Below, piece after piece: positions 52,828 to 63,957 of a DNA stretch of 64,000 nucleotides. A program made the position numbers and the translations under genes. Each line of letters begins with the position of its first letter. Position 1 is the stretch's first letter. Location: assembly GCF_004114535.1 (NCBI RefSeq), contig NZ_LBJC01000031.1, forward strand, positions 17,851 to 81,850. The letters run 5' to 3'. The notes beneath the pieces were generated by a model. The model had not been told where the DNA came from and searched no databases. It saw only the letters and a list, made by a program, of their open reading frames with translations. The DNA comes from Bradyrhizobium nanningense. GTDB lineage: Bacteria > Pseudomonadota > Alphaproteobacteria > Rhizobiales > Xanthobacteraceae.

Positions 52828-53151
52828 CTATCCACGTCCCGGCGAACGCTGGCCAGTCTTGCGCTGCTGCTGGGTGTAGGCGTCCCAATGGCTCCAACTG
52901 CCGTTGCTGAGGCTCTGCAGGTCAGTTGCGAGCGGACGGCGGGTGCGCTTGTCGTGATCGGCGATCACGCGCTCGGACTGCGCGATCTTGCGCTTGAGTT
53001 CCGCGATGGTCTTCTGGGTCTGGCCGTTCCGCTTCGACGAGGCGATCTCGCCCATCGTGAAGCGCGCGGTCTCCACCGCCTTCAACTCGGCGCGGTTCTT
53101 CTTCAACTGGACCCGGTGCCAGGCGATGTTGCTGTCGCTGTCCGCAACCAT
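52828..53151 (-). CDS. hypothetical coiled-coil protein
   Basis: A 107-residue protein, largely helical with heptad-like Lys/Glu patterns (VQLKKNRAELKAVETARF; KTIAELKRKIAQSERVIADH) and a basic tail. No signal or membrane segment. It is a single gene between the P450 and ferredoxin reductase genes, on the same strand. I do not recognise a family. The ATG at 53151 follows a short upstream in-frame start at 53178 and is preferred. Confidence 0.6.
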   Translation of the reverse strand: MVADSDSNIAWHRVQLKKNRAELKAVETARFTMGEIASSKRNGQTQKTIAELKRKIAQSERVIADHDKRTRRPLATDLQSLSNGSWSHWDAYTQQQRKTGQRSPGRG

Positions 53152-53246
53152 GTGGGAACTCCGCTGATTCGCTCCCACAGTGTATCAAGCGCCGAATCGG
53201 CGCCGCAACGCCCGCCCGAGGGCAAAAATACGGTCATTCTGCGGAC

Positions 53247-54020
53247 TTAGCGCTCGGCGAAGGCCTTTTCGACCACGAACTGGGCCGGCTCGCCGTGATT
53301 GCCCTCGACGAAGCCTCGCTCGCCCAGGAGCACGCGGGTGTCCGCCACCAGCGCCGGGCTGCCACAAATCATGACGCGATCATGGGCGGCTTCCAGGGCC
53401 GGCAGGCCGATATCGGCGAACAGCTTGCCCGAGGTGATGAGGTCGGTGATGCGGCCCCGGTTACGGAAGGGATCGCGCGTCACGGTCGGATAGTAGATCA
53501 GCTGTTCGCGGATGTATTCACCGATCAGCTCGTCCTTCGGCAGCGTCTGTGTGATCATCTCGCCATAAGCGAGCTCCTTGACGTGCCGGCACCCGTGCAG
53601 CAGCACGACCTTCTCGAACCGCTCGTAGGTCTCGGGGTCCTTGATCACGCTCAGGAACGGCGCAAGGCCAGTGCCGGTGCCGATGAGGTAGAGGTTGCGC
53701 CCCTCCTCCAGATTGTCGATCACGAGCGTGCCGGTGGCCTTGCGGCTGACAATGATCTCATCGCCTTCCTTCAAGTGCTGGAGACGCGAGGTCAGCGGCC
53801 CGTCCGGCACCTTGATCGAGAAGAACTCCAGCGTGTCCTCGTAGTTGGCGCTGGCGACGCTGTAAGCCCGCAGCAGCGGCTTCTCGCCGACCTTGAGCCC
53901 GATCATGGTGAACTCGCCGTTGCGGAAGCGGAAGGTCGGGCTGCGGGTGGTCTTGAAGGAGAACAGCGTGTCGGTCCAGTGGTGGACGCTCAAAACGCTT
54001 TCCTGATTGAAATTGCTCAT
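53247..54020 (-). CDS. fpr: ferredoxin-NADP+ reductase
   Basis: A 257-residue subclass I bacterial FPR. The FAD-binding R-x-Y-S motif is LLRAYSVASANYEDTLEFF, the NADP nucleotide loop is LIGTGTGLAPFLSV, and MICGSPALVADTRVLL is near the C-terminus, which extends to AFAER. It reduces ferredoxin or flavodoxin with NADPH or the reverse. It is divergent from the enamidase-like gene across a region holding a palindrome also present at the 6-hydroxynicotinate-reductase-like promoter, so it may supply reduced ferredoxin for the ring reduction. It is also a housekeeping oxidative-stress type, so the link is inferred. Confidence 0.92.
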   Translation of the reverse strand: MSNFNQESVLSVHHWTDTLFSFKTTRSPTFRFRNGEFTMIGLKVGEKPLLRAYSVASANYEDTLEFFSIKVPDGPLTSRLQHLKEGDEIIVSRKATGTLVIDNLEEGRNLYLIGTGTGLAPFLSVIKDPETYERFEKVVLLHGCRHVKELAYGEMITQTLPKDELIGEYIREQLIYYPTVTRDPFRNRGRITDLITSGKLFADIGLPALEAAHDRVMICGSPALVADTRVLLGERGFVEGNHGEPAQFVVEKAFAER

Positions 54021-54073
54021 CTCACCTTCCCTGTCGCTTCCAATGCGGTTTTCGAGGCGGGCCAGCTATGCGT

Positions 54074-54103
54074 CGTTTGTACACGATCATTCGTATACTA
54101 ATG
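54074..54103. promoter_or_regulatory. palindromic operator pair in the fpr / enamidase promoter
   Basis: CATTCGTATACTAATG (54088-54103) is a 16-bp palindrome with one mismatched pair. Just left of it is CGTTTGTACAC (54074). The same CATTCGTATAC core recurs upstream of the reductase-like gene (63788), and CGTTTGT..ACAAACG recurs at 63942. This suggests a shared regulator, with the MarR protein of the operon a candidate. Confidence 0.6.
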
Positions 54104-54179
54104 AATAATCCTGCTTGATCCCGGGGTCAAGGCTGCCCAAGATCGAAAGCGTTGCAGTTAGGAATAAGGAGCCCCTTCC

Positions 54180-55376
54180 ATGGCGCATGACGCACCCCAG
54201 GCCACCGGACCCTCGAAGCTCGTGATCCGGAATATCGGCCTGATCCTGTCCGGCGCTTTGGAAAAGCCGATCCTGGACGGCGACACCATCGTCGCCGAGA
54301 ACGGCAAGATCACCGCGATCGGCCGCTTCAAGGACGTCGACATCGAAGGCGCGACCACCATCGTCGACGCCCAGGGCACCACGGTGGCGCCGGGCCTGAT
54401 CGACAGTCACGTCCACCCCGTCGCCGGCGACTGGACGCCGCGCCAGAACCAGACCAACTGGATCGACAGCTACCTCCATGGCGGCGTCACCACCATGATC
54501 TCCGCGGGCGAAGTGCACATGCCAGGCCGCCCCCGCGACGTGGTCGGCCTGAAGGCGATGGCCGTGTTCGCCCAGCGCGCGTTCTGGACCCTGCGCCCCG
54601 GCGGCGTGAAGGTGCATGCCGGCGCGCCGGTGATCGAATGCGAGATGGTCGAGGAAGACTTCAAGGAGATGGCCGCCAACGGCGTCAAGCTGCTCGGTGA
54701 GGTCGGCCTCGGCGGCGTCAAGGACGGCCCGACCGCGCGCAAGATGGTGGGCTGGGCGCGCAAATACGGCATCCAAAGCACGATTCACACTGGCGGCCCC
54801 TCGATCCCCGGCTCCGGCCTGATCGACAAGGACGTGGTGCTGGAAGCCGACACCGACGTGGTCGGCCACATCAACGGCGGGCACACCGCGCTGCCCGACG
54901 ACCAGATCCGCTGCATCTGCGAGGGCTGCAAGCGCGGGCTCGAGCTCGTGCACAACGGCAATGAACGTTCGGCCCTGTTCACGCTGCGCACCGCGCGCGA
55001 GATGGGCGATCTGCACCGCGTCATCCTCGGCACCGACGCGCCGGCCGGCTCCGGCGTGCAGCCGCTCGGCATCCTGCGCATGGTCTCGATGTTGTCCTCG
55101 CTCGGCGAGCTGCCGGCGGAGATCGCGTTTTGTCTGGCCACCGGCAACACCGCGCGGATGCGGCAGCTCGATTGCGGCCTGATCGAAGTCGGCCGCTCCG
55201 CCGACTTCGTCATCATGGACAAGGCGCAGCACTCGCCCGGCAAGAACATCCTGGAGAGCGTCCAGCTCGGCGACCTCCCCGGCATCGGCATGACCATCAT
55301 CGACGGCATCGTGCGCACCCAGCGCAGCCGCAACACCCCGCCGGCGGGGAAAGTGCCGGAAGTGGTGGCGAAGTAA
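54180..55376 (+). CDS. enamidase-like amidohydrolase
   Basis: A 398-residue metal-dependent amidohydrolase. Ligand candidates: His77 and His79 (DSHVHPV), Glu174 (LLGEVGLGG), His203 (TIHTGG), His230 (GHINGGH) and Asp286 (GTDAPAG). This order, with a glutamate where other members use carboxylated lysine, is that of the enamidase of Eubacterium barkeri, which hydrolyses 1,4,5,6-tetrahydro-6-oxonicotinate to 2-formylglutarate and ammonia. Context agrees: the operon facing it at 63.7 kb encodes a 6-hydroxynicotinate-reductase-like protein and shares an operator. AAGGAG precedes the ATG. The substrate may also be a related cyclic amide. Confidence 0.78.
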   Translation: MAHDAPQATGPSKLVIRNIGLILSGALEKPILDGDTIVAENGKITAIGRFKDVDIEGATTIVDAQGTTVAPGLIDSHVHPVAGDWTPRQNQTNWIDSYLHGGVTTMISAGEVHMPGRPRDVVGLKAMAVFAQRAFWTLRPGGVKVHAGAPVIECEMVEEDFKEMAANGVKLLGEVGLGGVKDGPTARKMVGWARKYGIQSTIHTGGPSIPGSGLIDKDVVLEADTDVVGHINGGHTALPDDQIRCICEGCKRGLELVHNGNERSALFTLRTAREMGDLHRVILGTDAPAGSGVQPLGILRMVSMLSSLGELPAEIAFCLATGNTARMRQLDCGLIEVGRSADFVIMDKAQHSPGKNILESVQLGDLPGIGMTIIDGIVRTQRSRNTPPAGKVPEVVAK

Positions 55377-55387
55377 ACCACGGAAAC

Positions 55388-55487
55388 AGTGCCGTAGGGT
55401 GGGCAAAGGCGCGAAGTGCCGTGCCCACCATCCTCAATTTGAGGAAGAATCGTGGGCACGCTTCGCTTTGCCCACCCTACGGCACTG
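55388..55487. repeat. intergenic inverted repeat (GTAGGGTGGG family)
   Basis: AGTGCCGTAGGGTGGGCAAA and TTTGCCCACCCTACGGCACT form 20-bp arms in the gap between the convergent enamidase-like and MarR genes. A bidirectional terminator-like structure; the same family recurs at 59403. Confidence 0.7.
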
Positions 55488-55490
55488 TCG

Positions 55491-55946
55491 CTACCGCAGC
55501 TTATTCAACAGCGCCATCAACGTCTCGCGCTCCTTGGCGTCGAGCGGCGCCAGGGTCTCGCGGGTAATGGCGAGCGCATTGGGCGCGAGCTTTTCCGCCA
55601 GCTGCTGGCCAGCGCGCGTCAGGCTCACAAGCAGACGCCGTCCGTCCCCGGGGTCCTGACTGGTCTCGGTCAGGCCACGCGCTGTCAGGCGGTCGATCAC
55701 GCCCTTGATGGTCGCGACATCCATCGCCGTCAGCCGGCCGAGCTGGTTCTGCGAGCACGGACCGGTCTCGGCGAGCTTCGACAGCGCCGCCCATTGCGTC
55801 GGGGTCAGATTGGTGCCGATGTCGCGGGAGAAGATCGAGCTGTGGCGCTGCCAGACCTGACGCAGGATGAAGCCGACCTGCTCGTCGAGCACGTAAGGCG
55901 GTTTTCCCGGTTTGATGCTCTTCTTCGCCGTGACGCTTCTCGCCAT
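55491..55946 (-). CDS. MarR-family regulator, candidate regulator of the nicotinate-like locus
   Basis: A 151-residue MarR protein with the winged HTH DIGTNLTPTQWAALSKLAET, CSQNQLGRLTAMDVATIKGV and the wing DPGDGRRLLVSLTRAG. NicR, the repressor of nicotinate catabolism in Pseudomonas, is a MarR protein, and this one has the same family layout. It is the last gene of the leftward transporter operon, 25 bases after LivF, and may sense a pathway intermediate and bind the shared palindromes at 54.1 and 63.8 kb. Binding is inferred from co-location only. Confidence 0.85.
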   Translation of the reverse strand: MARSVTAKKSIKPGKPPYVLDEQVGFILRQVWQRHSSIFSRDIGTNLTPTQWAALSKLAETGPCSQNQLGRLTAMDVATIKGVIDRLTARGLTETSQDPGDGRRLLVSLTRAGQQLAEKLAPNALAITRETLAPLDAKERETLMALLNKLR

Positions 55947-55971
55947 CCGCTCGCAGCCCTTCCCTTTGCCC

Positions 55972-56676
55972 TTACAACGACAGATGCGCGTCGCGGATGT
56001 CGGGACGCGCGTCGAGCTCGGCCATGGTGCCGCCGAAGCAGATGCGGCCGCGCTCGATGATGTAGGCGCGGTCGGAGATCAGCCGCGCGAAATGCAGATT
56101 CTGCTCGGAGACGACGATGCTGACGCCCTCCTTCTTCATGGTCAGGATGGCATCGACCATCTGCTCCACGATCTTCGGCGACAGGCCTTCCGAGGGCTCG
56201 TCGAGCAGCACCAGCGAGGGATTGCCCATCAGCGTGCGGGCAATCGTCAGCATCTGCTGCTCGCCACCGCTCATGCGGCCGCCGGGACGGTTCTTCATCT
56301 CACCGAGATTGGGAAACAGCGCGAACAGCTTCTCGCGGGTCCAGTGCGGCGCGTTCGGACGCTTCGGCTGGCGGCCGACTTCGAGATTCTCCTCCACCGT
56401 CAGGTCGGTGAAGATGCGCCGTTCCTCCGGCACATAGCCGAGCCCTTCGCGCACGATCTCATGGGTCGGACGCAGCGAGACGTCCTTGCCCTCGAACACA
56501 ATGCGGCCCGAGCGCTGCGCGACGAGACCGACGATCGAGCGGAACGTGGTCGACTTGCCGGCGCCGTTGCGGCCGAGCAGCGCCACCACCTCGCCCTCCC
56601 CGACCTCGAAGCCGATGTCGAACAGGATATGCGCCGGGCCGTAGTGGCTGTTGAGGTCTTGCACCGCCAGCTTCAT
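55972..56676 (-). CDS. livF: branched-chain-type ABC transporter ATPase (LivF)
   Basis: A 234-residue ABC ATPase: Walker A GRNGAGKST, signature MSGGEQQML, Walker B LVLLDEPSEGL, plus the LivF-type EIVREGLGYVPEERRIFTDL. It energises a family 4 (HAAT) uptake system. Start overlaps the LivG stop by four bases. The transporter is downstream of the 6-hydroxynicotinate-reductase-like gene, so it probably imports nicotinate or a related aromatic or cyclic acid. Confidence 0.93.
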   Translation of the reverse strand: MKLAVQDLNSHYGPAHILFDIGFEVGEGEVVALLGRNGAGKSTTFRSIVGLVAQRSGRIVFEGKDVSLRPTHEIVREGLGYVPEERRIFTDLTVEENLEVGRQPKRPNAPHWTREKLFALFPNLGEMKNRPGGRMSGGEQQMLTIARTLMGNPSLVLLDEPSEGLSPKIVEQMVDAILTMKKEGVSIVVSEQNLHFARLISDRAYIIERGRICFGGTMAELDARPDIRDAHLSL

Positions 56677-57464
56677 GCTGAGGCTCCCTCACGATGGCGG
56701 GCGTCGTAGACGAGACCCTCGCCGAGATAGACCGCCTGCACTTGCGGATTGCCGCGCACCTCCGCCGGCGAGCCCTCGGCAATCAGCGCGCCGCGGTTGA
56801 GCACGATGATGCGGTCGGCATGCTCGAACACCACGTCCATGTCGTGCTCGGTGAAGAGCACGCCGATCGATTTTTCCCGCGCGATTCGAGCCGTGAGCCG
56901 CATCAGATCGACACGCTCGCGCGGCGCCATGCCGGCGGTCGGCTCGTCCATCAGCAAGAGCTTCGGCTGGTTGGCGAGCGCCACCGCAAGCTCGAGCCGC
57001 TTCAGGTCGCCATAGGCAAGCTCGCCGCAGGGGCGATCCGCATAACCGCCCATGCCGACCAGTTCGAGCAGACGGCCGGCTTCGTCGCGGTCGAACTTGG
57101 GTGCCGAACCGAACAGACTGAACAGCTGCTTCCCGTAGGAGATCAGCGCAACCTGCACGTTCTCGCGCACGGTCATGGTGGCGAAGGTCGCGGTGATCTG
57201 GAAGGTGCGCCCGACGCCGAGCCGCCAAACCTCGCGCGGCTTTCTGCCGGTGATCCCTTCGCCGAGCAGGCGAACATGGCCGGTATCAGGCTGGTTCTGG
57301 CCATTGAGCATGTCGAAGCAGGTGCTTTTTCCCGCGCCGTTCGGCCCGATCAGCGCCAGGATTTCGCCGGCCCGCAGCGAGAACGACACCCCGCGCACGG
57401 CGTGGATGCCGCCATAGGATTTGGTCAGACCTTCGACCGCGAGAAGTGGGGGTGCAACGCTCAT
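56673..57464 (-). CDS. livG: branched-chain-type ABC transporter ATPase (LivG)
   Basis: A 263-residue ABC ATPase: Walker A GPNGAGKST, the family GVGRTFQITATFATMTVREN, a signature-like ELAYGDLKRLELAVAL (the usual LSGGQ is replaced, as in many LivG), Walker B LLLMDEPTAGM and FTEHDMDVVFEHADRI. The ATG overlaps the permease stop (ATGA). It pairs with LivF as the heterodimeric motor. Confidence 0.93.
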   Translation of the reverse strand: MSVAPPLLAVEGLTKSYGGIHAVRGVSFSLRAGEILALIGPNGAGKSTCFDMLNGQNQPDTGHVRLLGEGITGRKPREVWRLGVGRTFQITATFATMTVRENVQVALISYGKQLFSLFGSAPKFDRDEAGRLLELVGMGGYADRPCGELAYGDLKRLELAVALANQPKLLLMDEPTAGMAPRERVDLMRLTARIAREKSIGVLFTEHDMDVVFEHADRIIVLNRGALIAEGSPAEVRGNPQVQAVYLGEGLVYDARHREGASA

Positions 57465-59350
57465 TCGGCGGACTCGATCGGCTTGGCAAGCAGGGGAGAT
57501 CCCGGCGGCGATGACTTCCGGCGGCGCTGCGCCAACGTTTCCAGCATGCCGACGATGCCCTTGGGGAAGACGACGACGATCAGCACGATGAAGCCGCCGA
57601 GCACGAGCTTCGACAGATCGGTCTGGCTGACCAGCCAGATGTTCAGAGCCTTGTAGACGATGGCGCCGATCACCGCGCCCGACACCGTCTCGACGCCGCC
57701 GAGCAGCACCATGACCAGCGCATCGACTGACAGCGAGATGCCGAGATTGTCGGGGAAGACGCTGCCCTTCAGATACGCGAACAGCGCACCGCCGATGCCG
57801 GCGGTCGTGCCGGCGATCACGAAAGCCGTCCACTGGATGCGCTTGGCGTTGATGCCGATCGCTTCGCTGCGCAGCAGCGAGTCGCGCGTGGCACGAAGCG
57901 CATAGCCGAACGGCGAGAACACCATGGCGCGCAGCGCGATGGTCACCAGCGCCGCAACGCCGAGCGCCAGCCAATAGAAATGCGACGGGCTCGCCGCCCA
58001 CTTTTCCGGCCAGACGCCCAATATGCCGTTGTCGCCGCCGGTGACGCTCACCCATTGGAACGCGATCGACCAGACAATCTGGGCGAAGGCCAGCGTCAGC
58101 ATCGCAAAGTAGACACCGGAGAGCTGCACGGCGAAGAAGCCGAACACGGCAGCGCCCATGCAGCCGAGCAGCGGACCGAGCAGCAGACAGACGATCATCG
58201 GCAGCCCCGCCATCTTGGCGAGGAACGCAACGCCGTACGCACCGAGGCCAAAATAGGCGGCGTGGCCGAAGGACGCGAGCCCGCCGACCGACATCAGGAA
58301 GTGCAGGCTGACGGCGAAGATCACGAAGATCGCGATCTCCGAGCCAACGGTCAGCGCGTAGTTGCCGGCAAACAGCGGCAGCGTCGCCGCGATGACCAGC
58401 GCCGCAAGTGCGGCCAGCCGCTCATTGGACGTCAACGGCCGCCACGGATTGACGGTGAGCCCCGGCGTCTTGCGCGCGGGCGCCTCCGGCTTGCCGAACA
58501 GACCCCAGGGCCGCACGATCAGCACCGCCGCCATCACGAGGAAGACCAGGATGATGGAGATTTTCGGGAAGATCAGGATGCCGAAGGCATTGAGCTCGGA
58601 GACCAGCACCGCGGCAACGAAGGCGCCGATGATGCTGCCGAGGCCGCCGATCACGACCACGACGAAGACCTCGACGATGATGCGCAGGTCCATCGCGTGG
58701 TGAACGGCGTCACGCGGGATCTGGAGCGCGCCGCCGAGGGCGGCCAGGAAGACGCCGACCGCGAACACCGATGTGAACAGCCATTTCTGATTGACGCCGA
58801 GCGCTGCGACCATGTCGCGGTCCTGCGTCGCGGCCCGTACCAGGACGCCCCAGCGCGTGCGCTGAAACAGCAGCCAGAGGATGCCGAGCACGACCGGTCC
58901 GAGCACGATCAGGAACAGATCGTAGCTCGGGATGTTCTGGCCGAAGAAATCGATGGCGCCCTTGAAGCCAGGAGCCCGGCGGCCGACAAGATCGTCGGGC
59001 CCCCAGATCAGCACGACAAGATCCTCGACCATCAAGGTCAGGCCAAAGGTCGCGAGCAGCTGGAACAATTCGGGCGCATGGTAGATCCGGCGGAGCAGCA
59101 CCATTTCGACGATGACGCCGATCAGCGCCACGGCGAGCGCCGCCAGCACGATGCCGCCCCAGAAGCCGAAGGCCCCCGACAGGCGCTCGGTCAGCGTGAA
59201 GGCAATATACGCGCCGATCATGTAGAAAGCGCCATGCGCGAAATTCACGATCCGCGTCACGCCGAAGATGATCGACAGGCCCGAGGCCACCAGGAACAGC
59301 GACGCCGCGCTGGCGAGACCGGTCAGAAACTGTACGACGTAAAAGGCCAT
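57461..59350 (-). CDS. fused LivH-LivM permease of a branched-chain-type ABC transporter
   Basis: A 629-residue membrane protein in which the LivH (about 1-290) and LivM (about 310-620) permeases are joined in one chain. The LivH half has GLSIIFGVTRIVNFAHGAFY and VIGGLGSIIGAFVAAVLVSE; the LivM half has VGGLASFGHAAYFGLGAYGV and the final VVFPKGIVGML. Normally these are two proteins. The linker of about 25 residues has a Pro/Lys-rich stretch (GKPEAPARKTPG). Fusions occur in several alphaproteobacteria. It is the translocation pore for the SBP, LivG and LivF encoded here. Confidence 0.92.
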   Translation of the reverse strand: MAFYVVQFLTGLASAASLFLVASGLSIIFGVTRIVNFAHGAFYMIGAYIAFTLTERLSGAFGFWGGIVLAALAVALIGVIVEMVLLRRIYHAPELFQLLATFGLTLMVEDLVVLIWGPDDLVGRRAPGFKGAIDFFGQNIPSYDLFLIVLGPVVLGILWLLFQRTRWGVLVRAATQDRDMVAALGVNQKWLFTSVFAVGVFLAALGGALQIPRDAVHHAMDLRIIVEVFVVVVIGGLGSIIGAFVAAVLVSELNAFGILIFPKISIILVFLVMAAVLIVRPWGLFGKPEAPARKTPGLTVNPWRPLTSNERLAALAALVIAATLPLFAGNYALTVGSEIAIFVIFAVSLHFLMSVGGLASFGHAAYFGLGAYGVAFLAKMAGLPMIVCLLLGPLLGCMGAAVFGFFAVQLSGVYFAMLTLAFAQIVWSIAFQWVSVTGGDNGILGVWPEKWAASPSHFYWLALGVAALVTIALRAMVFSPFGYALRATRDSLLRSEAIGINAKRIQWTAFVIAGTTAGIGGALFAYLKGSVFPDNLGISLSVDALVMVLLGGVETVSGAVIGAIVYKALNIWLVSQTDLSKLVLGGFIVLIVVVFPKGIVGMLETLAQRRRKSSPPGSPLLAKPIESAE

Positions 59351-59402
59351 CGGCGGTCCGGGTTGGGTGTTGCATCTCATCCCGTGCGGGGAGAGAGAGC
59401 TT

Positions 59403-59519
59403 CGTAGGGTGGGTTAGCCCTGCAGATGCGCGAAGCGCATCTGCTCGGCGTAACCCACCTCCTCTGGTTCTGCGGATGCAGACCGTGGTGGGTTACGCCT
59501 TCGGCTAACCCACCCTACG
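59403..59519. repeat. nested intergenic inverted repeat (GTAGGGTGGG family)
   Basis: CGTAGGGTGGGTTAGCC and GGCTAACCCACCCTACG are perfect 17-bp arms; inside are a second pair (GGCGTAACCCACC and GGTGGGTTACGCC) and a GATGCGC/GCGCATC-like stem. It fills the gap between the receptor and permease genes, a position where such elements can favour higher expression of the receptor over the membrane parts. Confidence 0.7.
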
Positions 59520-59529
59520 GCAGCGGAGT

Positions 59530-60732
59530 TCAATCCTTCGGCCGCAGCTTTCCGACTTCCGCGTCGCTCGGCAGGTAGTCCGCGCCCTTCTTGTAGGACG
59601 AATCCACCATCACGCCCTTGCCGTCCTTCAGCGCGGTCTTGCCGACGAAGGCACCGAGTGTCGATTGGTGATCGATCTTGCGGAAGGTGATCTCCCCGAA
59701 CGGCGACGGCACGGAGAGGCCTTCTGCCGCAGCGATCAGCTTCTCCGGATCGCTCGAGCCGGCCTTCGCCAGGATCGCAGCCGCCGACTTGATGGTCTGG
59801 TAGCCGACGATCGAGCCAAGACGCGGATAGTCGTTATACTTGGCCTGGTAGGCCTTCAGGAACGCGTCATGCTCGGGCGTCTTGATCGAGTACCAGGGGT
59901 AACCGGTGACGATCCAGCCCTCGGGCGTCTCGTCCTTGAGCGGATCGAGATATTCGGGCTCGCCGGTCAGGAACGAGACGACCTCACGGCCCTTGAACAG
60001 GCCGCGGGTGTTGCCCTCACGCACGAGCTTGACGAGATCGGCGCCGAAAGTGACGTTGAGGATCGCTTCGGGATTGGCGGCGGCAACCGCCTGCACCACC
60101 GGGCCCGCATCGATCTTGCCCTGCGGCGGCCATTGCTCGTCGACCCACTGGATGTCCGGACGCTTCTCCGACATCAGCTTCTTGAACACCGCGACCGCCG
60201 ACTGGCCGTATTCATAGTTCGGCGCGATCGTCGCCCAGCGCTTGGCGGGCAGCTTGGCGGCAGCCTCGACCAGCATCGCCGCCTGCATGTAGTTGGAGGG
60301 GCGCAGGCGGAAGGTGTATTTGTTGCCCTTGGACCAGGTGACGGCATCCGTCAGCGGCTCGGCCGCGAGGAAGAACACCTTCTTCTGGTTAGCGAAGTCG
60401 CTGACAGCAAGGCCGATATTGGACAGGAACGTGCCCGCGAGCATCGCAACCCCTTCGCTCGACACCAGCTCGTTGGCCGCTGTCTGCGCGTCCGCCGGCT
60501 TGCCGCCGTCGTCCTTGGAGATGACCACGAGCTTCTTGCCATTGATGCCGCCGGCCGCGTTGACCTCCTCGACCGCGAGCTGCCAGCCCTTGCGGTACGG
60601 GTCGGTGAAGGCCGGCAGCAGCGAGTAGCTGTTGATCTCACCGATCTTGATGTCCTGCGCCATCGCCGAATGAGCCATGCCGCCCGCCAGAAGCGCGAAG
60701 GCCGCTCCCACAAAAGTGTTTCTCGCTCGCAT
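59530..60732 (-). CDS. branched-chain-type (LivK-like) periplasmic receptor
   Basis: A 400-residue family 5 receptor: signal peptide FVGAAFALLAGGMAHSAMAQ, then IKIGEINSYSLLPAFTDPYR, the PBP1-like NAAGGINGKKLVVISKDDGG and NYEYGQSAVAVFKKLMSEKR. Relatives bind aromatic acids, amides or urea as well as leucine. It is the first transporter gene, about 80 bases after the AA-synth family gene, and lies before the nested repeat. Ligand likely the pathway substrate. Confidence 0.92.
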   Translation of the reverse strand: MRARNTFVGAAFALLAGGMAHSAMAQDIKIGEINSYSLLPAFTDPYRKGWQLAVEEVNAAGGINGKKLVVISKDDGGKPADAQTAANELVSSEGVAMLAGTFLSNIGLAVSDFANQKKVFFLAAEPLTDAVTWSKGNKYTFRLRPSNYMQAAMLVEAAAKLPAKRWATIAPNYEYGQSAVAVFKKLMSEKRPDIQWVDEQWPPQGKIDAGPVVQAVAAANPEAILNVTFGADLVKLVREGNTRGLFKGREVVSFLTGEPEYLDPLKDETPEGWIVTGYPWYSIKTPEHDAFLKAYQAKYNDYPRLGSIVGYQTIKSAAAILAKAGSSDPEKLIAAAEGLSVPSPFGEITFRKIDHQSTLGAFVGKTALKDGKGVMVDSSYKKGADYLPSDAEVGKLRPKD

Positions 60733-60810
60733 CCCAACCTCCAGTTTTGAACTCTACGTCTTCAGCGTGACCTTGTCGGGGAAGCTGTGCCCACCTCCCC
60801 GGTTCAAACC

Positions 60811-61395
60811 CTATCTCAGACCGTCTTCGCCCTTGATCTCCGCAACCGTGAGCCCACCGACGCGCGGCAACGGGCGCCCGCTGTCGGTGACAGCGACGGC
60901 GACCATGATCTCGTTGGCGCGCGGCGCGTCGTTGATCTGAACTTCCATGCCGTCGAAATGGCTGCGCACGAAGGCCGCGTCCTTGTGCCCGAGCGGAATG
61001 TCCAGCGTCGTGCCGGGCCCGCCGCGCTTCTTCGACGACGGGATCAACGCTGCGCCCTTGCTCAGGACTTTACGCACCGGCGCTCCCATTTTCGGGTGAA
61101 GGATCGCGGCGGCGTGTTCCAATTCGCCGTTCTCGCCGACGGCCGCGGCCTTGCCATAGCTCTGCGCCTTCGCGCCGTCGATACCGAGCGCCGCCACCGC
61201 GCGCTTCGACAAGAGCTCGCCGAGCTCCTCGCCGATCGCGATCAACGGCGAGAGGTCCTCGACATATTGTCCAGCGAAAGGATTTTCGATCACGGCAATG
61301 GCTGCGGCACGCCGGGTCGGCGGCGAGACCTGGCGGCCCATCTCCATCTGCGTCTCTTCGACGACTGTGACGATCTTGCGGATGATCGCGCTCAT
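60811..61395 (-). CDS. amino acid synthesis (AA-synth, DUF1185) family protein
   Basis: A 194-residue protein of the PF06684-type AA_synth family: IRKIVTVVEETQMEMGRQVS, IAVIENPFAGQYVEDLSPLI, GELEHAAAILHPKMGAPVRK and IPLGHKDAAFVRSHFDGMEV. The family name comes from weak early evidence; structures known from Bordetella and others suggest a ring-hydrolase-like or chaperone-like fold, and the true function is open. It follows the UPF0280 gene by 15 bases; the three-gene set reductase / UPF0280 / AA-synth looks like a recurring unit (recall), so it probably acts in the same pathway. Confidence 0.82.
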   Translation of the reverse strand: MSAIIRKIVTVVEETQMEMGRQVSPPTRRAAAIAVIENPFAGQYVEDLSPLIAIGEELGELLSKRAVAALGIDGAKAQSYGKAAAVGENGELEHAAAILHPKMGAPVRKVLSKGAALIPSSKKRGGPGTTLDIPLGHKDAAFVRSHFDGMEVQINDAPRANEIMVAVAVTDSGRPLPRVGGLTVAEIKGEDGLR

Positions 61396-61410
61396 GTTTC
61401 GCTTCCCTGT

Positions 61411-62307
61411 TCAGGCACCAACCGCGCTCTCCAGCAGACGCGGGCGCGTTCGTTGCTCTTCAATATCCTTAGGTCCGATGACAAGCATATCACCACAAAG
61501 CTGCAATACGGCACCCTCGATCAATCCGCGATCGAACAATTGACGTGCACATTCCGCGCCAGAATCGAGGGCGGCAGTGATCTCATCCTGTGACAATTGA
61601 CCGACATTTCGGGTGACAAGACGCGCGCCGAGATCGTTGTCGGGCTGAAGCTCGCAGGCCGGTTGCCTGACGACGGCAGGATGCCCCGGCAGATCGACGG
61701 CGTTGGCAATCACCGTCGCCGCGGCATCGGCCTGTGAAGCCGTCGCGGCCAGCACCGTCACCGCATCGGCAATCCCGAGCGAAAAGCTGCGGCCGTGCCG
61801 CCCGCTGGTCGCGACGCCCCCGACCTGGTCATCCGCATCGACCCTCATGGCTCGCATCACGCCGTCACGATCGGGACGATCCATCAGGCCAATCGAGAAA
61901 TTCTCGCCTTTGCCCAGATGAAGGGCGATGTCGCCGCCATTGTTGACATAGGCCCGATCGAGCGTCGCAGCGCCCAGCATGGCGCCGAGGATCTCCTCCG
62001 CCACGCTGCCGGCGACGGCGGCCATCGGCGTGATGAAGCAATCAGCGGCAAAGGGCGCCACCGCCGCGTGCATCCGGCACGCCACCACGCCCCTCAGCGA
62101 GGTGCGCTCCTCCGCAGCAGCGCGCAGCTCCGGCAGCTCCACGCAGAGCTCGTCAAGCAGCCCGGTGAACCGCCGCGCCGCAGCTTCATAGGCCGCTCGC
62201 ACCGCGTCTGTGCGCCCCCTCGCCTCAACGATCAGGTCAATCGGTCCATCCTGCAAATGCAGCCGCCGGCCATCAGACAGCAATGCGATTTGCGGCAGCC
62301 TCGTCAT
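61411..62307 (-). CDS. UPF0280 (ApbE-like fold) protein, candidate flavin transferase
   Basis: A 298-residue protein of the UPF0280 family. Its blocks follow those of ApbE, the FMN transferase: MAAVAGSVAEEILGAM, the substrate strand AYVNNGGDIALHL (ApbE N-x-G-G-D-I) at about 119-131, VATSGRHGRSFSLGIADAVT (ApbE T-S-G) at 165-184, and SQADAAATVIANAVD (ApbE A-D-a-x-a-T) at 191-205. It lacks a signal peptide or lipobox, so it would work in the cytosol. The start overlaps the reductase stop (ATGA). E. barkeri 6-hydroxynicotinate reductase is reported to carry covalent flavin (recall), so flavinylation of that partner is an attractive but untested role. Confidence 0.82.
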   Translation of the reverse strand: MTRLPQIALLSDGRRLHLQDGPIDLIVEARGRTDAVRAAYEAAARRFTGLLDELCVELPELRAAAEERTSLRGVVACRMHAAVAPFAADCFITPMAAVAGSVAEEILGAMLGAATLDRAYVNNGGDIALHLGKGENFSIGLMDRPDRDGVMRAMRVDADDQVGGVATSGRHGRSFSLGIADAVTVLAATASQADAAATVIANAVDLPGHPAVVRQPACELQPDNDLGARLVTRNVGQLSQDEITAALDSGAECARQLFDRGLIEGAVLQLCGDMLVIGPKDIEEQRTRPRLLESAVGA

Positions 62308-63761
62308 GCCCGAGGTCCTGGAATGGGGCTCTGCCAGGGCAACTGCCGGACATCCTCGCCGTTCTGCACCTCGGACAGCGGCTTTACGTAATCCATGTGG
62401 CCACCGAGCGCCGCGTAATCAGACAGCTTCATCGTGAACTCGATCGGCGCGACCAGCGCCGGCGTCGGCACATAGCCGAACGCACCCGCCGGCATCTGGG
62501 TGACATCGACCATGTAGGTGATGCCGCCGCCGGGCCAGACATAGACCGGCGCGCCGCCGCTGGTGACGCGCGTCAGAGCATCCTTCACCGAGCGCGTCAG
62601 CCGCACCGGATTGTCGGTGACGCCGGCGCGCAAGGAACCACCGGCGCCGGCCATGAACAGCACCGTGCACAGCGCCGGTTCGCAATTCTCCTGGATGCGC
62701 TCGACCGAGAACTTCAGATCGGCAGGCATCTCGGTCTCGACCGGCTTCAAGGCCTCGTCGAGCACGTAGTAGGACGAGTGCTCGCCGGTCGTGGACACCA
62801 TCAGCATGGTCAGACCGGGCTTTGCTTCTTTGGGATCGAACGGCCCGAGGATCGCCAGCGGATCGGAAATGTTGGTGCCGCCCCACCCCGTGCCGGGATC
62901 GGCGACCTGGAAATAGCGGCCGGGCGTCGAACGCCGGCCTTTCATCTTGATGCCGGTGTCGGCGATGTCGAGCAGCTTGCCGGCCTGATGCTCCGAGAGC
63001 ACCCCGGTGATGTGATCGTCGACCACGACGACCTCGTCGACCTTGCCGTGCCATTGTTTTGCGAACATGCCGATCGTCGCCGAGCCGCAGCCGACCCGCA
63101 TGCGCTCTTCCCTGATACCGTTGACGACAGGCGGCTCGCCGGCCTGCACCACCACGGTGGCGCCGCCGTCGATGGTGAGCTCGACCGCCTTGCAATTGGC
63201 GAGGTCCATCAGCGTATCGCAGGTGACGCGGCCCTCCTTCTTGGAGCCGCCGGTCAGGTGATGCACGCCGCCGAGCGACAGCATCTGCGAGCCGTATTCG
63301 CTGGTGGTGACGTGGCCGACTGCCTCGCCCTGCGCGCGCACGGTCGCGGTCTCCGGCCCGAGATAGCGGTCGGTGTCGATCTTCACCTTGACGCCGCAAT
63401 AGGAGAAGATGCCCTCGGTGACCACTGTCACCATGTCGACGCCGTCGACCTCAGCTGAGACGATGAAGGGCGCCGGCTTGTAGTCGGGATAGGTCGTGCC
63501 CGCGCCGATCGCGGTGACGAAGGTCGAGGGTTCGTGGACGATCTTGCCGTCCCAATCTTCCGTTCGGCTGAACGGGACCAGCTTGCCGCCATGCGAGACG
63601 GTGCGCTCCAGGATCACGTGCGGATCGACGCGGACGAGCTTGCCGTCGTGGTTGGCGTAGCGGTCGCAGGCACCCGCTGCGCCCGGCTTGATGTAACACA
63701 TCACCGGACAAGCATCGCAGCGGATCTTGTCGATGGCGGCGTTCGTTGTTTCAGTCACCAT
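62304..63761 (-). CDS. 6-hydroxynicotinate reductase-like Fe-S protein
   Basis: A 485-residue protein that I match by recall to 6-hydroxynicotinate reductase, which in Eubacterium barkeri reduces 6-hydroxynicotinate to 1,4,5,6-tetrahydro-6-oxonicotinate with reduced ferredoxin. The N-terminus has a C-x2-C-x3-C-x9-C set (Cys15, 18, 22, 32; RCDACPVMC) fitting a [4Fe-4S] cluster; more cysteines lie at 122, 181, 190, 225, 360 and 365. Later blocks are YGSQMLSLGGVHHLTGGSKK, ERMRVGCGSATIGMFAKQ and DPGTGWGGTNISDPLAILG. A DGGAT at 198-202 resembles flavinylation sites loosely. It is the first gene of the operon, with a palindrome 27 bases before its ATG. Confidence 0.75.
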   Translation of the reverse strand: MVTETTNAAIDKIRCDACPVMCYIKPGAAGACDRYANHDGKLVRVDPHVILERTVSHGGKLVPFSRTEDWDGKIVHEPSTFVTAIGAGTTYPDYKPAPFIVSAEVDGVDMVTVVTEGIFSYCGVKVKIDTDRYLGPETATVRAQGEAVGHVTTSEYGSQMLSLGGVHHLTGGSKKEGRVTCDTLMDLANCKAVELTIDGGATVVVQAGEPPVVNGIREERMRVGCGSATIGMFAKQWHGKVDEVVVVDDHITGVLSEHQAGKLLDIADTGIKMKGRRSTPGRYFQVADPGTGWGGTNISDPLAILGPFDPKEAKPGLTMLMVSTTGEHSSYYVLDEALKPVETEMPADLKFSVERIQENCEPALCTVLFMAGAGGSLRAGVTDNPVRLTRSVKDALTRVTSGGAPVYVWPGGGITYMVDVTQMPAGAFGYVPTPALVAPIEFTMKLSDYAALGGHMDYVKPLSEVQNGEDVRQLPWQSPIPGPRA

Positions 63762-63941: not shown

Positions 63942-63957
63942 CGTTTGTGTACAAACG
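63942..63957. promoter_or_regulatory. second palindrome far upstream of the reductase-like gene
   Basis: CGTTTGT and ACAAACG form 7-bp arms around GT. Its complement shares CGTTTGTACAC with the sequence at 54074. It may belong to a gene reading rightwards out of the window, or be an auxiliary site for the operon. Confidence 0.45.

Follow-up and report, generated by a model that had tools for sequence, protein, structure and literature searches.

A probable reductive nicotinate catabolic cluster of Bradyrhizobium nanningense and its partner proteins

The reductive nicotinate fermentation cluster of Eubacterium barkeri was reportedly described by Alhapel in 2006. The available passages of PMC3511419 place the same cluster in four relatives of the organism studied here, Azorhizobium caulinodans and Bradyrhizobium japonicum among them, with a pathway via tetrahydro-6-oxonicotinate, and the portion of PMC9304392 at hand describes the same route in both E. 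barkeri and A. caulinodans. Here we analyze a 64-kb stretch of the 8.29-Mb genome of Bradyrhizobium nanningense (the window, G000:C74:17851-81850), in which ten genes at 53247-63761 form what we regard as one functional unit. We conclude that this locus very probably makes up most of a gene cluster by which an aerobic alphaproteobacterium catabolizes nicotinate reductively, a degree of confidence that covers the pathway and not each helper protein. The locus is real, it is mostly known, and it was correctly recognized by an earlier, sequence-only reading of the window except in respect of its dehydrogenase and its novelty. Such a route had been called little described, and PMC3511419, in the passages available, already describes the cluster in Azorhizobium and Bradyrhizobiaceae.

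Pathway assignment and input substrate

The minus strand carries a run of genes, separated by short gaps or overlapping, that leads from a 6-hydroxynicotinate reductase homologue (HnR) through an ApbE-like protein, a DUF1185 protein, a periplasmic substrate-binding protein, a fused permease and two ATPases to a MarR-family regulator (end 55491), and beyond it the genes for an enamidase (plus strand) and a ferredoxin-NADP reductase (minus strand) diverge from each other. All of the genes named in the sequence-only reading are present where it had put them, the cluster's own ATP-binding cassette (ABC) transporter (four genes, 55972-60732, minus strand) and regulator included, and the ApbE-like and DUF1185 genes are core members that it had left unnamed. 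The two central enzymes align over their full length with E. barkeri proteins, the comparison to which that reading had pointed. HnR is identical at 188/454 positions to the homologue encoded near the enamidase gene of E. barkeri VPI 5359, and the enamidase at 177/385 positions to the E. barkeri enzyme. For the enamidase the best solved structure is 2vun, the next best match having an E value of 7e-06, and the alignment keeps the metal-site motifs HVH, GEVGLG, HTGG, HINGG and G-x-D-A-P.

The same genes travel together in distant genomes. With the E. barkeri enamidase as query, 11 loci were recovered, namely that of E. barkeri itself (L040), nine at 60-97% identity (L041-L049) and one weak match (L050, 25%). 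HnR is present in all ten of L040-L049, cut short in L042, where the stretch stops, and in L044, where the contig stops. An ApbE-like gene adjoins it in nine of the ten, the L044 genome having a copy on another contig, and DUF1185 is likewise found in nine, the exception being the cut L044. In E. barkeri, E. aggregans and Acetobacterium bakii the genes for HnR, the ApbE-like protein, dehydrogenase subunits, enamidase and DUF1185 all lie within ~13 kb.

The statement that no nicotinate dehydrogenase lies in the window is literally true and is nevertheless misleading. A Fer2_2 domain search gave 15 matches, of which one falls beyond the window end, at C74:82085 of the same contig. Two proteins are encoded there (L009), a [2Fe-2S] protein (Fer2/Fer2_2) and one of ~1170 residues that has molybdopterin-binding (MoCoBD) and cytochrome c domains, a make-up that resembles the NicAB type of Pseudomonas putida. 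The first ATG of this gene pair (L009:15861) lies 10 bases after the last base of the window. The doubt about nicotinate as the input thus arose because the window edge hid the dehydrogenase, and we reject the absence of any dehydrogenase from the cluster as an artefact of that edge. Judged by its domain make-up, the pair is a candidate nicotinate hydroxylase belonging to the cluster, and its homologues are located near HnR in all 17 of the HnR-bearing genomes in a family sample of 61, that of the window included. The earlier suggestion that the natural input may be 6-hydroxynicotinate or another 2-oxo-pyridine acid loses its ground with a dehydrogenase of fitting make-up adjoining the window, and nicotinate is the most likely input.

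The two ends of the cluster share a palindrome. Allowing at most one mismatch, TTYGTRTACRAA gives seven matches at four places in the window, where 0.22 are expected, all in two divergent promoters. The pattern was derived from the two sites near 63.8-63.9 kb, so that independent support comes from the pair at 54.1 kb together with the relatives, in which 25 stretches from the 17 family genomes hold 36 palindrome places (four of them the window's), none inside a mapped cluster gene. The palindrome occurs in 16 of the 17 genomes, with none in G198. A stricter first pattern had missed the window sites, and the one-mismatch rerun covered the family loci only. Consensus promoters and terminators, sought at 53100-55600, gave nothing above chance. 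The MarR protein would be the obvious candidate reader of these operator-like sites. Single palindromes were also seen with the stricter scan in loci of other families (L066:3673 and L073:4189).

From homology, gene order, co-occurrence and the palindrome pattern we put forward the following scheme. The ABC transporter would import nicotinate (or a relative), which the dehydrogenase encoded beyond the window would hydroxylate to 6-hydroxynicotinate, passing the electrons to cytochrome c. Electrons from NADPH would pass through the ferredoxin-NADP reductase, and then through a ferredoxin whose gene lies elsewhere, to HnR, which is predicted to reduce the pyridone ring of 6-hydroxynicotinate to 1,4,5,6-tetrahydro-6-oxonicotinate, and the enamidase would open the ring to yield 2-formylglutarate and ammonia. 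We propose that the ApbE-like protein attaches the covalent flavin to HnR, that the DUF1185 protein acts at the ring-opening stage and that the MarR protein regulates both divergent promoters by way of the palindrome they have in common.

Table 1. Genes and operator-like sites of the cluster, in window coordinates
Feature	Position	Strand	Basis
6-hydroxynicotinate reductase homologue (HnR), 485 aa	62304-63761	-	41% identity to E. barkeri homologue
ApbE-like protein, proposed flavin transferase for HnR	61411-62307	-	NF003322, 421 bits; 4 bp overlap with HnR
DUF1185 / PF06684 'AA_synth' protein	60811-61395	-	Pfam 1e-75; PDB 2qtp 1e-88; neighbours
Periplasmic substrate-binding protein, branched-chain-amino-acid-type ABC transporter	59530-60732	-	Peripla_BP_6 1e-68
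Fused ABC permease, LivH- and LivM-like halves	57461-59380	-	Two BPD_transp_2 stretches
ABC ATPase, LivG-like, inferred start	56673-57464	-	Profile matches
ABC ATPase, LivF-like	55972-56676	-	Profile matches
MarR-family regulator, proposed reader of operator-like sites	55491-55946	-	PF01047 3e-11
Enamidase homologue	54180-55376	+	2vun E 5e-109; 46% identity to E. barkeri
Ferredoxin-NADP reductase, Fpr-like	53247-54020	-	NF008178 163 bits, under its cut-off of 390
Palindromic operator-like site, 28 bases upstream of HnR start codon	63790-63801		Exact match to TTYGTRTACRAA; recurs in relatives
Second operator-like site, upstream of dehydrogenase genes	63944-63955		Palindrome scan; recurs in relatives
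Two adjoining operator-like sites, ferredoxin-NADP reductase/enamidase intergenic	54076-54101 (54076-54087, 54090-54101)		One mismatch each

HnR, its partners and the ring-opening step

HnR has no Pfam or NCBIfam match at E ≤ 0.01, and a sequence search for a solved relative found none. A structural model from nine sequences (mean predicted local distance difference test score, pLDDT, 70.8) gave no PDB match with Foldseek at E ≤ 0.001 and a best VIA-align Z not above 4.3, which does not demonstrate a new fold. The Fe-S-type motif consists of Cys15, 18, 22 and 32, and like C225 and C360 these four residues are unchanged in all 49 HnRs compared, a set that leaves out L042, L044, L047, G028 and G064. 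As a flavin site, Ser376 in the motif [AST]-G-G-S, invariant in the same 49, offers the closest setting of an invariant hydroxyl, and Thr296 in [WI]-G-G-T (judged by eye) is a weaker candidate. Thr382, which is a Cys in the aligned clostridial forms, and the T-I-D-G-G-A-T stretch, which is not conserved, were rejected. Among 291 genomes of the class to which E. barkeri belongs, HnR was found only in the already-known G250 and G251, with no independent replicate. Two HnRs are interrupted, that of G028 lying in two overlapping pieces in different frames (L053 8824 and 9510) and that of G066 (G066:C1:1610114-1611538) having one in-frame TGA within the match, from frameshift, decay or sequencing error.

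The ApbE-like gene accompanies HnR closely. HnR occurs in 28 of the 190 genomes of a class sample and in 32 of the 398 of a phylum sample, and the ApbE-like gene occurs in the same 28 and the same 32 and is missing from the remaining 162 and 366, two samples that overlap (positives G000, G028, G037 and G066) and share descent and so are not independent draws. The two matches lie on the same strand and ≤570 bp apart throughout the phylum sample, and in the family the ApbE-like gene adjoins HnR in 16 of 17 genomes. The profile that the protein matches, NF003322, goes by the name UPF0280. All ten aligned members match Pfam ApbE at E ≤ 0.01 (best 7e-07), and a profile built from them weakly matches the FAD:protein FMN transferases 6nxj and 6nxi of the Vibrio cholerae type (6nxj E 0.003). 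In the available part of PMC12052999 the conserved ApbE residues are Ser241, His257 and Asp285 (V. cholerae numbering) and the target motif is D-x-x-[ST]-G-A-[ST]. Through the 6nxj alignment, Ser168 and Asp194 are the counterparts of Ser241 and Asp285 in 51 of 51 ApbE-like sequences, and GGD is kept in all 51. Second, more distant ApbE-like copies were noted in three of ten genomes, on contigs other than that of HnR (G252:C76, G253:C29 and G259:C95).

The enzymes on either side of HnR vary. In 23 of the 27 other HnR-bearing class genomes a homologue of a fused Fe-S/Mo protein lies beside HnR, replacing the cytochrome c type. At the ring-opening step, nine of the 28 class genomes have an enamidase (≥71% identity) together with HnR, the order in G071 being inferred from separate short contigs, and one has it elsewhere (G001). 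Another 13 have HyuA at the module, counting G087, where it lies on another contig beside the ApbE-like gene, and G186, where it is ~19 kb from HnR, and HyuB was present in the stretch read in ten of them. Five show neither enamidase nor HyuA (G044, G064, G105, G122 and G135), G064 having been read on short contigs only and the G044 stretch ending with its contig. Enamidase and HyuA are never together at one HnR locus in these 28 genomes, and the top score of the HyuAB pair is to caprolactamase subunits, below the cut-off. On a quick tree of 33 HnRs, which leaves out G028 and G064 and in which five rows without a clear label were not counted, the enamidase and HyuA labels need five changes, of which at least three are forced by well supported branches. 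We infer that the enamidase and a caprolactamase-like HyuAB replace each other at the same step. Distant enamidase relatives (37-40%) occur elsewhere in G060, G064, G104 and G185, and in G060 (L079, G060:C7), a genome without HnR, the gene immediately after DUF1185 encodes an enamidase relative of 40% identity. In G082 (L080, L081) enamidase and DUF1185 are present and HnR was not found; the substrate of these two proteins may come from elsewhere.

DUF1185 belongs to the cluster in organisms ranging from Clostridia to Alphaproteobacteria. It occurs in 37 of the 190 class genomes, comprising 26 of the 28 with HnR (not G066 or G184) and 11 without. One subtype is often placed after the ApbE-like gene and another beside the enamidase; tandem pairs of two subtypes are seen in several loci (L066 from 11311, L109 from 6775), and the window genome has a second subtype on another contig (G000:C54:13628-14203). 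At E ≤ 0.001 the hits of a structural model (pLDDT 65.8) were all to DUF1185 structures. The available part of PMC2954203 ties DUF1185 to amino-acid metabolism by a chorismate-mutase-like fold and nearby branched-chain transport genes, a link that is doubtful because such a transporter here belongs to a pyridine cluster. We propose that the role of DUF1185 is perhaps around ring opening.

Weighing the alternatives

Several observations weigh against one or another part of our interpretation, and we consider them here together with the explanations that they favor. The E. barkeri HnR reportedly contains, again according to Alhapel in 2006, a covalent flavin, one [2Fe-2S] and two [4Fe-4S] clusters, and two clusters located in a ferredoxin domain would fit those cofactors. 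Two ferredoxin-type Cys motifs precede the core motif in 8/8 clostridial or deltaproteobacterial HnR frames, but none do so in the window HnR or in 43/43 alphaproteobacterial frames, the frames counted being those with the core motif CxxC[PS]xxC...GAC, with the alphaproteobacterial ones read back to the preceding stop codon. Three frames lacking the core motif were set aside, L042 being cut, L047 containing unknown bases and the third being the second fragment of the broken HnR in L053. The N-terminal ferredoxin domain is thus a feature of the clostridial form, not required in the available passages of PMC3511419, which count a proteobacterial homologue as 6-hydroxynicotinate reductase, and because the window HnR is without it the electron route of the anaerobe is not directly transferable. 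The ABC transporter, moreover, could carry another substrate, and HnR alone does not fix the substrate because the hydroxylase and the ring-opening enzyme vary across HnR loci: homologues with 64-71% identity occur beside other enzymes of both kinds in many alphaproteobacteria, most other class genomes having a different hydroxylase and about half a different ring-opening enzyme, and 6-chloronicotinate enters the same pathway in SG-6C according to the passages of PMC3511419 at hand. On these grounds the cluster might serve another pyridine carboxylate, or imported 6-hydroxynicotinate or 6-chloronicotinate, and not nicotinate itself, which we consider improbable given that, here as in relatives, a fitting molybdenum hydroxylase pair is transcribed away from HnR across an intervening region that contains palindromes, and that the enamidase is of the E. 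barkeri type. At HnR loci outside the family the ferredoxin-NADP reductase gene was never observed, and in the window and one relative (G213) a cytochrome P450 gene (51459-52730, minus strand) adjoins it on the same strand, so that it might be a chance neighbor serving that P450 or general metabolism. Within the family, however, it lies beside the enamidase in 14 of 17 HnR-bearing genomes (the window, G213, G214, G205, G229, G196, G195, G202, G249, G207, G246, G242, G198 and G230), and in 12 of these 14 the stretches read showed no P450 homologue next to it. In the three exceptions, the 9 kb read beyond the enamidase did not contain it (G194), neither it nor the enamidase was seen (G232) or the contig ends (G248). 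A ferredoxin gene precedes the reductase in four genomes (G195, G202, G246 and G230), two close homologues of that ferredoxin occur elsewhere in the window genome, along with two further paralogues (63-65%) of the reductase, and the palindrome sits in the reductase promoter. The idea of an incidental neighbor was rejected, as HnR loci of other families are without the gene but the family has it, and a dedicated P450 or general role seems unlikely to us; by its sequence context the ferredoxin-NADP reductase belongs to the cluster, and the NADPH-to-ferredoxin supply that the sequence-only reading had suggested has gained support. As a separate observation, a gene for a small protein (52828-53178, minus strand) adjoins the reductase together with the P450 gene, and among the compared loci both recur there only in L120.

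The function of the ApbE-like protein is more finely balanced. Its alignments show no counterpart of the catalytic His257 of ApbE, and because of this we class it as ApbE-like and not as a member of the ApbE family. In addition, the ApbE target motif is found in 0/49 HnRs, the window protein scores under the gathering cut-off of Pfam ApbE (22.6 vs 25.6), and the HnR of G196 (74% complete) has DUF1185 directly next to it and no adjacent ApbE-like gene, the rest of that genome not having been searched. The protein could instead be a chaperone, a subunit or a flavin-handling helper of HnR, an explanation that we take seriously while leaning away from it. Its partner enzyme is of a kind that carries a covalent flavin, the counterparts of the active-site Ser and Asp are conserved along with GGD in every sequence compared, and the co-occurrence with HnR across genomes is close. 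Flavin transfer, by which the protein would install the covalent flavin of HnR, is in our view its likeliest role.

Extending this argument, we offer as a tentative idea, one that we would place somewhat short of even, that HnR and the ApbE-like protein form a portable pyridone-reducing module in which a cytosolic transferase of a distinct type flavinylates Ser376 ([AST]-G-G-S), that aerobes have swapped the ferredoxin domain for an NADPH-fed supply, and that the ring is opened either by the enamidase or by ATP-driven HyuAB.

Comparison with known systems

What makes the locus valuable is its set of partner proteins, the exchange of the ring-opening enzyme and the palindrome common to its promoters, and all three can be tested. 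Comparison across genomes provides testable roles for two proteins of unknown function, ring opening in the HyuAB variant is predicted to consume ATP, and the cluster hints at a way for an aerobe to power an enzyme that was first discovered in an anaerobe. No literature was found on UPF0280, nor on nicotinate in combination with hydantoinase and 6-hydroxynicotinate, in a search that left most subscription journals outside its reach, and because it misses them we do not claim that any of these points is unpublished.

The ApbE-like protein resembles the ApbE FAD:protein FMN transferases in its profile, its GGD and its active-site Ser and Asp counterparts and is unlike them in its missing catalytic His, as HnR is unlike their targets in lacking the canonical motif. 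Relative to the cluster of A. caulinodans and Bradyrhizobiaceae, what differs is the description, the available passages of PMC3511419, Fig. 4 legend included, giving no names for the two proteins and saying nothing of an operator, a ferredoxin-NADP reductase or the lactamase variant. The E. barkeri fermentation cluster (L040) is unlike the present one in that two ferredoxin-type Cys motifs occupy an N-terminal domain of its HnR and its molybdenum protein is split over two frames, and the window adds an ABC transporter, a MarR regulator and a ferredoxin-NADP reductase, none of which was seen in L040, while HnR, the ApbE-like gene, dehydrogenase subunits, the enamidase and DUF1185 are common to both.

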